This document shows, in pieces, positions 32,134 through 34,009 of a stretch of DNA of 64,000 bases. The notes beneath the pieces are model-generated. The model was not told where the DNA came from, ran no database searches, and was given only the letters and a program-made list of their open reading frames with translations. Source of the DNA: Niabella aurantiaca DSM 17617 (lineage in GTDB: Bacteria; Bacteroidota; Bacteroidia; Chitinophagales; Chitinophagaceae); NCBI RefSeq assembly GCF_000374125.1, contig NZ_KB893627.1, positions 1-64,000 of the forward strand. Direction: 5' to 3'. How positions within the stretch are numbered: position 1 is the stretch's first letter; each line of letters opens with the position of its first letter. Position numbers and translations under genes: made by a program.

Positions 32134-32994
32134 TCAGTCAATCATCTTCTCAATCGGAATGATCAGGATGCCTTCGGCGCCGGCAGCTTTCAGGTTTTCG
32201 ATCACATTCCAGAAATCGGATTCGCTGATCACGGAATGCACCGAGCTCCAGTCTTTTTTTGCCAGCGGCACGATGGTGGGACTGTTGATACCCGGCAGGT
32301 AAGAGCAGATCTTCCCGATGCTTTTGTTGGGTGCATTGAGCATGACGTACTTGTTGTATTTTGCTTTTTTTACCGAACGGATGCGGAACAGCAGCTTTTC
32401 CAGCAGCGCCCGGCGTTTCGGGCTAAGCTTTTTGCCGGAGATCAGTACAGCCTCTGATTTTAAAATGGTCTCAAATTCATAAAGTTCATTGCTGAACAAG
32501 GTGCTGCCCGAGCTTACGAGATCACAGATCGCATCTGCCAGACCAATACGGGGTGCAATTTCCACCGATCCGCTAATGACGTGAATGTCGGCTTTCAGTC
32601 TGTTCTGTTTGAGCCATTTGTTCAGGATAAAAGGATAGCTGGTCGCAATCTTCATTCCATCCAGGTCCTTTACTGTTCGTTTTTTCCGGGTCTTGGGCAA
32701 CGCAATGGACAACCGGCATTTGCCATAGCCCAGCCGTTCTACGATATCCGCCGTCTTGTTCTTTTCCAGCACCACATTCTCGCCTACGAAACCGATATCG
32801 GCCACTCCGTCCTGTACGTATTCGGGAATGTCGTCGTCTCTTAAAAAGAGGATCTCGGCGTCAAAGTTCTCGGCATTGATCTTTAACTGGTTGTTGCCGT
32901 TCGGCACACCAATGCCGCATTCCTTCAGCAATTTTAAGGAGTCTTCACTGAGTCGTCCGGATTTTTGGACCGCGATTCTTAATTTTTCCTGCAT
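32134..32994 (-). CDS. hisG: ATP phosphoribosyltransferase, long form
   Basis: 286 residues, the long form with its own C-terminal ACT-like regulatory domain that binds histidine. The catalytic part shows RIAVQKSGRLSEDSLKLLKE, DGVADIGFVGENVVLE and the PRPP region DAICDLVSSGSTLFSNEL. The C-terminal domain runs from about residue 210 (SPTIVPLAKKDWSSVHSVIS). First and feedback-controlled step of the pathway, and first structural gene of the operon, right after the predicted attenuator. Confidence 0.98.
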   Translation of the reverse strand: MQEKLRIAVQKSGRLSEDSLKLLKECGIGVPNGNNQLKINAENFDAEILFLRDDDIPEYVQDGVADIGFVGENVVLEKNKTADIVERLGYGKCRLSIALPKTRKKRTVKDLDGMKIATSYPFILNKWLKQNRLKADIHVISGSVEIAPRIGLADAICDLVSSGSTLFSNELYEFETILKSEAVLISGKKLSPKRRALLEKLLFRIRSVKKAKYNKYVMLNAPNKSIGKICSYLPGINSPTIVPLAKKDWSSVHSVISESDFWNVIENLKAAGAEGILIIPIEKMID

Positions 32995-33012: not shown

Positions 33013-33042
33013 TAAAAAAGGCTTACAAATCTTGTAAGCCTT
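33013..33042 (-). terminator. Intrinsic terminator in the his leader (attenuator)
   Basis: On the minus strand AAGGCTTACAA and TTGTAAGCCTT form a perfect 11-bp stem with a 3-base loop (33018-33042), followed at once by a T run. It lies between the His-rich leader peptide and hisG, so read-through must be controlled. Confidence 0.85.
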
Positions 33043-33079
33043 CTTCTATAATTTGGATACATATCAGCACCGGCCTACA
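33033..33079 (-). promoter_or_regulatory. Predicted his antiterminator pairing
   Basis: TGTAGGCC (33072-33079), which overlaps the leader peptide's TAG stop, can pair over all eight bases (one G-U) with GGCTTACA (33033-33040), the 5' arm of the terminator. A ribosome that reaches the stop would cover TGTAGGCC and let the terminator form. A ribosome stalled at the His codons would leave it free. Confidence 0.65.
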
Positions 33080-33125
33080 CAGGTATGTCTGCTACATGAT
33101 GATGAATATGTACAAATATTTTCAT
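33075..33125 (-). CDS. hisL: His operon leader peptide
   Basis: A 16-codon frame, MKIFVHIHHHVADIPV, has four His codons, three of them consecutive, directly before an intrinsic terminator and hisG. This is the layout of ribosome-mediated attenuation: stalling at His codons when charged tRNA-His is scarce would favour the antiterminator. The ATG lies only a few bases beyond the expected transcription start, so the leader would be nearly leaderless; Bacteroidota tolerate this. Too short for ordinary gene callers. Confidence 0.75.
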   Translation of the reverse strand: MKIFVHIHHHVADIPV

Positions 33126-33132
33126 TGCGGTG

Positions 33133-33162
33133 CAAATATATACGAAATTTATGATTTCCCAC
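33133..33162 (-). promoter_or_regulatory. his operon promoter
   Basis: On the minus strand TATATTTG (33133-33140) matches the -7 consensus. Nineteen bases upstream stands GTG (33160-33162), one base off the usual TTG. Transcription would start just before the leader peptide ATG. Confidence 0.6.
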
Positions 33163-33241: not shown

Positions 33242-34009
33242 ATGCTACAACTTACCAAGCCCCTCGCTTTTATTGACCTGGAGACCACAGGAGTGAACCT
33301 GGGTTCCGACCGCATCGTAGAAATAGCCATTGTAAAGATCCTTCCGGACGGAACACGGAATGTAAAACGAAAACTGATCAACCCCGAGATGCCCATACCC
33401 AAAGCAAATACAGAGATACATGGGATCACAGACGAAATGGTGAAGGATGCCCCCACTTTTGCGCAGGTGGCACAGGAGCTGAAGCAGGTACTGGATGGCT
33501 GTGATCTTGCCGGCTATAATTCCAACCGGTTTGATGTTCCGCTGCTGGTAGAGGAGTTCCTCCGGGCGGGTGTTGATTTTGATATGCGCGGACGCCGGCT
33601 TGTTGATGTACAGAATATTTTTCATAAAATGGAGCAGCGTACGCTGTCCGCTGCATATAGGTTCTATTGCGAAAAAACACTGGAAGACGCACATTCTGCA
33701 GAAGCGGATGCTTCGGCCACGCATGAAGTGCTGCTGGCACAGATCTCCCGTTACCCTGAGCTGGGAACAACCGTTGACTCGATCAATAAGGCGATCGGGG
33801 AAGAGATCATTGTGGATTTTGCGCGCCGTTTTGTAATGGACAATGGGGTGGAAGTATTTAACTTTGGAAAGTACAAGGGAAAGGCCGTTGCCGATATTTT
33901 AAAAGCGGAACCGCAATATTATGACTGGATGATGAAAGGCGATTTTCCGCAACATACCAAACAGAAACTGACTGAGATCTTTACAAGAAGCAAGCTGAGG
34001 AAAAATTAA
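33242..34009 (+). CDS. DnaQ-like 3'-5' exonuclease
   Basis: 255 residues. DEDD exonuclease fold: ExoI motif FIDLETTGVNLGSDRIVEIA, ExoII around GCDLAGYNSNRFDVPLLVEE, and ExoIII HSAEADASATHEVL with the DEDDh-type His. The C-terminal ~60 residues carry a small separate unit, FNFGKYKGKAVADILK, found at the end of several DnaQ/ExoX-like proteins. Likely a repair or proofreading nuclease rather than the replicative epsilon subunit. Divergent from the his promoter; first of a plus-strand gene group. Confidence 0.9.
   Translation: MLQLTKPLAFIDLETTGVNLGSDRIVEIAIVKILPDGTRNVKRKLINPEMPIPKANTEIHGITDEMVKDAPTFAQVAQELKQVLDGCDLAGYNSNRFDVPLLVEEFLRAGVDFDMRGRRLVDVQNIFHKMEQRTLSAAYRFYCEKTLEDAHSAEADASATHEVLLAQISRYPELGTTVDSINKAIGEEIIVDFARRFVMDNGVEVFNFGKYKGKAVADILKAEPQYYDWMMKGDFPQHTKQKLTEIFTRSKLRKN

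Follow-up and report, generated by a model that had tools for sequence, protein, structure and literature searches.

The analysed window, a 64,000-nucleotide stretch of the Niabella aurantiaca DSM 17617 genome, contains a complete histidine operon on the minus strand. Eight genes in the order hisG-hisD-hisC-hisB-hisH-hisA-hisF-hisIE run from position 32994 down to 24802 (NCBIfam). The first gene, hisG (32994–32134), matches TIGR00070 above cut-off, and hisD, hisC, hisB, hisH, hisA, hisF and hisIE (31949–24802) show NCBIfam matches above the curated cut-offs. The feature described here lies directly upstream of the operon, at 33140–33014 of the same strand. On the other side of a common short intergenic stretch, an exonuclease-like frame (33242–34009, plus strand) runs divergently from the his leader.

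Structure of the his leader

The feature begins with TATATTTG (33140–33133, minus strand), a putative Bacteroidota promoter box of the -7 type, which matches TAnnTTTG exactly and is located 7 nt before an ATG. This ATG opens a leader frame of 16 codons, MKIFVHIHHHVADIPV (33125–33075), which ends with a TAG stop and carries His at codons 6, 8, 9 and 10. Segment 1, TACATATTCATCATCA (33112–33097), extends over the His codons and forms the 5′ side of a protector helix in the predicted fold, the 3′ side being segment 2′, GGTGCTGATATGTA (33071–33058). Segment 2, TGTAGGCC (33079–33072), lies on the leader stop codon and provides the 5′ side of the antiterminator. Its partner GGCTTACA (33040–33033) is contained in segment 3, the terminator 5′ arm AAGGCTTACAA (33042–33032), while segment 4 (33028–33014) comprises the terminator 3′ arm TTGTAAGCCTT (33028–33018) and the remaining T run. 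The terminator hairpin AAGGCTTACAA-GAT-TTGTAAGCCTT (33042–33018) thus consists of 11 perfect pairs closed by a 3-base loop and followed by a T run, and the antiterminator TGTAGGCC/GGCTTACA of 8 pairs including one G-U. All the parts named in the first-pass annotation of this DNA, a promoter-like box, the 16-codon leader with its four His codons, an 11-bp terminator with a T run and hisG, were located on the minus strand; the eight-base antiterminator on the leader stop codon, with its one G-U, was found as it had been described.

The 125-nt leader RNA has a predicted folding energy of -32.5 kcal/mol compared to -20.7 +/- 3.4 kcal/mol in dinucleotide shuffles, none of 200 being as stable. The antiterminator pairing was matched by 0 of 200 shuffles with a 15-nt terminator arm and by 40 of 5000 with an 11-nt arm. 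The protector helix between segments 1 and 2′, which had been missed in the first reading, is present in the predicted leader fold; 31 of 200 shuffles were as good, so that at this locus it does not exceed 95% of shuffles. A simple promoter scan of the leader region gave no excess over shuffles. The same was true of a simple terminator scan (region total of 8 versus 11.9 in shuffles), which did not list the his hairpin itself, probably because the extended stem includes the T run.

Folding predictions were also made for the RNA lying past a ribosome. With the ribosome stalled on His10 and the RNA cut after segment 3, the predicted fold was the antiterminator; with the ribosome at the stop codon, it was the terminator. 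Once segment 4 was included, the terminator was favoured even with a stalled ribosome, indicating that the choice between the two structures must be kinetic and made during RNA synthesis.

At gathering score, a tRNA was the sole Rfam match in the window, and the 20 related loci compared gave none. His_leader (RF00514) was matched neither in the window, nor among 12 weak matches near the leader, nor in the 20 related loci. A sub-threshold match to Thr_leader near the leader (25.2 bits, gathering score 55; E 0.012) probably reflects a similar hairpin layout.

Recurrence and conservation of the leader in relatives

After removal of 11 duplicates and 2 too-short stretches from 100 hisG loci, a named sample of 87 distinct upstream stretches was available for comparison. 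A His leader was defined as a short frame that opens with ATG and holds 3 or more His within 7 codons, and a strong terminator by a score of at least 25. His-rich leaders were present before hisG in 80 of the 87 loci, compared to an average of 1.9 in shuffles (20 rounds, maximum 5) and to 1 on the reverse strand. The remaining seven (L057, L064, L079, L088, L089, L097 and L099) are without an ATG-started His leader; L064 carries a five-His run inside a longer frame. Strong terminators were found in 71 of the 80 leader loci versus 1.0 in shuffles (5 rounds). Pairing of the terminator 5′ arm with an upstream segment exceeded 95% of shuffles in 61 of the 80, where 4 would be expected. Nine loci with Acidobacteriota titles (L047, L048, L052, L060, L065, L071, L081, L084 and L087) also have His-rich leaders upstream of hisG, and L071 alone among them has a terminator score of at least 25. 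All nine belong to the 19 loci that fail the antiterminator comparison. The same antiterminator in Acidobacteriota was rejected on this count, 0 of 9 loci being above 95% of shuffles.

The spacing of the conserved parts was tested using the 13-nt footprint of a ribosome. In 59 of the 61 antiterminator loci, 13 nt or more separate the first base of the last His codon from the start of segment 2, so that a ribosome stalled on this codon should leave the segment free. In all 61, segment 2 reaches no further than 13 nt beyond the first base of the stop codon, which is a one-sided test. Judged by eye, its start falls within 15 nt before the stop in 57 of the 61 and further upstream in L043, L076, L078 and L094. 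The antiterminator core, GTAAGCC or GTAGGCC, is conserved also where the frame differs, the peptide then ending in ...SRP or ...GRP. This suggests that selection acts on the RNA and not on the peptide. The protector helix exceeded 95% of shuffles in 15 of the 61 loci (3 expected; mean z -1.0).

Covariation was examined in loci with GGCTT or AGCTT in the terminator arm, an antiterminator reached by at most 20 of 200 shuffles and a leader of at most 30 letters including the stop, which left 55 of the 80. In a first alignment of these 55 some distant rows were out of register, and it did not enter the pair counts; eight loci were then omitted as hard to align, and 47 were used. In these, 99.3% of the terminator cells are paired, versions slid along the alignment reaching at most 62.3%, and 38 cells are changed on both sides versus 9.2 in shuffles, in two pairs. 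The corresponding values for the antiterminator are 94.1% paired versus 90.8% shuffled and at most 48.5% slid, with 15 both-side changes versus 6.1, all in one column pair. For the protector helix, 78.8% of the cells are paired versus 76.7% shuffled and at most 48.4% slid, with 12 both-side changes versus 5.5. Since the selection of rows favours pairing, these counts support rather than prove the helices. The alignment of his leaders from relatives that the first-pass annotation had proposed thus shows His runs, terminator and antiterminator to recur, together with some two-sided paired changes.

A second sample covered the class. Of its 197 genomes 89 have a hisG match, and the upstream stretches of all 88 other than the window's own genome were examined; some genomes may occur in both samples. 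An ATG-started His leader precedes hisG in 74 of the 88, a few of them, such as L167 and L180, looking weak. Among the other 14, a His cluster was flagged in six. Three of these (L113, L125 and L137) resemble leaders that use a different start codon, L162 is a possible further case, and L127 and L170 were not convincing as leaders. Strong terminators accompany 56 of the 74 leaders. Four of the 74 had no hairpin to test, and in 31 of the 74 the antiterminator exceeds 95% of shuffles. Of these 31, the spacing from the last His codon is as required in 24 and that from the stop codon in 29.

Start of the leader and sister leaders on other operons

In Flavobacterium psychrophilum the TAnnTTTG box is reported at -12 to -5 (PMC9723704). 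In this register, the AUG is at +1 when 4 nt separate it from the box, and the gap of 7 nt at the N. aurantiaca leader would leave about 3 nt of 5′UTR. In the named sample, 52 of the 80 loci have a TAnnTTTG box 3–11 nt upstream of the leader ATG, with a gap of 4 in 16 and of 7 in 19. Shuffles gave 1.04 (100 rounds, maximum 3), the best in-frame ATG being used for the observed loci and one ATG only in the shuffles. As a further control, none of 39 long open reading frames of the window has such a close box. In the class sample, the box gap is 3–11 nt in 22 of the 74 leaders and longer (12–37 nt) in 32, and 20 have no box. At the N. aurantiaca locus, inspection by eye found no TTTG, the -33 element, at 19–21 nt before the box. 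Eight loci (L049, L058, L059, L068, L070, L073, L083 and L092) have in common a stretch similar to TTTTTGGCGATAATGTTTTT, some 20 nt ahead of the -7 box. It is longer than a -33 element needs and is perhaps a protein-binding site.

Leaderless or very short 5′UTRs account for 5.5% in F. psychrophilum (PMC9723704), and 5′UTRs of less than 10 nt for about 3.7% in Bacteroides thetaiotaomicron (PMC7366714), while 87% of the predicted transcripts of F. johnsoniae have a 5′UTR of more than 10 nt (PMC6847099). A single leaderless rule for the whole phylum was rejected, as the box is close in only 22 of the 74 class-sample leaders. Judged from box spacing, a near-leaderless start would thus be a trait of part of the class, above all of the window's nearer relatives. 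The nearly leaderless reading given in the first-pass annotation agrees with the -7 box spacing at the locus itself and in the 52 named-sample loci, but does not extend to the class in general.

Leader frames also precede other amino acid operons of the genus. At trpE, a leader with a Trp run, a strong terminator and a box gap of 5–8 nt was found in 14 of 14 loci (L202 in the own genome, and L189–L201), for example MNYLNNNNWWWHRNSSGAR followed by a stop; of these 14, only two had an antiterminator pairing above 95% of shuffles. At pheA, all 15 loci (L256–L270, L262 being that of the own genome) have a Phe-rich leader with a box gap of 6–10 nt, such as MIRATKFYTWFYFSFFFFSGKPGAFLLK and its stop. 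The scripted search recovered the Phe leader in 14 of the 15, and 13 of these 14 have a strong terminator. In all 14 pheA leaders tested, the antiterminator pairing exceeded 95% of shuffles. Both remaining types are without a close box: an Ile/Val leader with a strong terminator occurs at ilvD in 7 of 15 loci, including the own genome (L221), and a Thr leader at thrA in 13 of 13 (own genome L236), with no strong terminator by the score used. Second aspartokinase copies of the genus showed no convincing leader, weak frames being present in 4 of 13. In three genomes of the same genus (G004, G006 and G008), the frames of hisG and of other biosynthesis genes are broken up or contain inner stops, perhaps due to sequencing errors in the assemblies.

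Proposed mechanism, alternatives and known systems

The leader combines a His-rich frame, an intrinsic terminator and an antiterminator that excludes the terminator and is placed for control by a ribosome. We are confident that it is a ribosome-mediated transcription attenuator, a reading drawn from sequence. Its parts, their recurrence, pairing and spacing are seen in the DNA, and from them we infer the transcription start, translation, stalling, timing and histidine response as follows. RNA polymerase would start about 3 nt upstream of the leader AUG, given the Flavobacterium -7 register, and a ribosome would load near the 5′ end. With charged His-tRNA in short supply, this ribosome would stall on the His codons in the region of codons 6–10 and cover segment 1, leaving segment 2 free to pair with segment 3 on its emergence; the terminator would be blocked and the his genes transcribed. 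When His-tRNA is charged, the ribosome would reach the stop codon and cover segment 2, so that segments 3 and 4 could pair and transcription would terminate before hisG. If no ribosome were present, segments 1 and 2′ would pair as the protector helix and loop out segment 2, and termination would again be favoured. The recurrence of leader, terminator and antiterminator, measured against shuffles, supports the first-pass proposal that the logic is that of enterobacterial his attenuation, the regulation itself being predicted from structure.

The attenuator might have an ordinary 5′UTR, either because TATATTTG is not a promoter or because transcription starts further upstream. We consider this version unlikely, albeit the most serious of the alternatives. 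It would fit the finding by eye that this genome has no TTTG at the -33 position, the 52 of 74 class-sample leaders with gaps of 12–37 nt or without a box, and the rarity of leaderless mRNAs in the phylum. However, it leaves the close box in 52 of 80 named-sample loci, compared to 1.04 in shuffles and 0 of 39 long window ORFs, to be accounted for, as well as the close box in the Trp (14/14) and Phe (15/15) leaders of the genus. An improbable reading dispenses with attenuation and assumes a constitutive terminator or processing hairpin next to a small functional His-rich peptide, which might, for instance, bind metal. A complementary segment that excludes the terminator, present at the leader stop in 61 of 80 loci and conserved across differing reading frames, would have no place in such an arrangement, even if the frame is conserved with His as its most constant part; moreover, trpE and pheA show the same layout with codons for Trp and for Phe.

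T-boxes are described as controlling his genes in Firmicutes and Actinobacteria (PMC9413887), but a T-box was detected neither at gathering score in the window nor among the 12 weak matches near the leader, and government of the operon by this or another RNA sensor is highly improbable. That a short frame and hairpins without function came together by chance is scarcely credible in view of the recurrence across many genera and the shuffle controls on leader, terminator, antiterminator and fold, even though the simple promoter and terminator scans were without excess here.

As a ribosome-mediated attenuator, the his leader would belong to a larger set. We lean towards the view that Bacteroidota carry old and widespread attenuators of this type, represented in this genus by his, trp, phe, ilv and thr, several of them near-leaderless in the window's relatives, where ribosomes would load at the very 5′ end in the absence of a Shine-Dalgarno sequence. 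If so, transcription and translation would be tightly coupled at these leaders. The leaders would also double as sensors of histidine, tryptophan and phenylalanine in these bacteria. Bacteroidota mRNAs are described as naturally lacking Shine-Dalgarno sequences (PMC6847099), and the attenuator would place classical his attenuation in such a phylum. As attenuation of this kind requires a ribosome close behind RNA polymerase, the leaders offer a direct test of both coupling and leaderless initiation in the phylum.

The principle of attenuation and leaderless attenuators are already known elsewhere; what is of interest here is the breadth of occurrence, the near-leaderless start and the sister leaders. 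A literature search by title and start of the abstract, with subscription journals partly covered, found no named his attenuator of Bacteroidota. Work by Lopatovskaya et al. from 2010 may cover Bacteroidetes and so may already predict such attenuators. Another paper of 2010, presenting a leader peptide system of Firmicutes, knew of earlier ones from Proteobacteria and Actinobacteria alone (PMC2965389). In a further paper, his attenuators are assigned to Proteobacteria and to part of the Firmicutes, the word 'Bacteroidetes' being absent from its main text (PMC9413887). The Firmicutes his attenuators predicted there resemble the present leader in having a terminator, an antiterminator and a leader, there with three to five consecutive His codons, but belong to other lineages. 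Enterobacterial hisL of E. coli and Salmonella shares the His leader before the first his gene, the terminator, the antiterminator, the helix over the His codons (predicted here) and the regulatory logic. It differs in its seven consecutive His codons versus 3–5 here, whereas the present leader has a very short predicted 5′UTR, gives no RF00514 match and comes from another phylum. Its predicted start at or near the RNA 5′ end would link the present leader to Sinorhizobium meliloti trpL, in which the leader AUG is at the 5′ end (PMC7298713), and to Corynebacterium glutamicum ilvBNC, which is treated as leaderless and has a three-hairpin attenuator (PMC11857589). These two concern other amino acids and phyla, and the start predicted here is derived from a promoter box rather than mapped. 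F. psychrophilum belongs to the same phylum as N. aurantiaca, and strong, transcript-based clues of leader peptide attenuation before its amino acid operons have been reported in a paper whose main text does not contain 'histidine' or 'his operon' (PMC9723704); as in the window, the leaders there precede amino acid biosynthesis operons.
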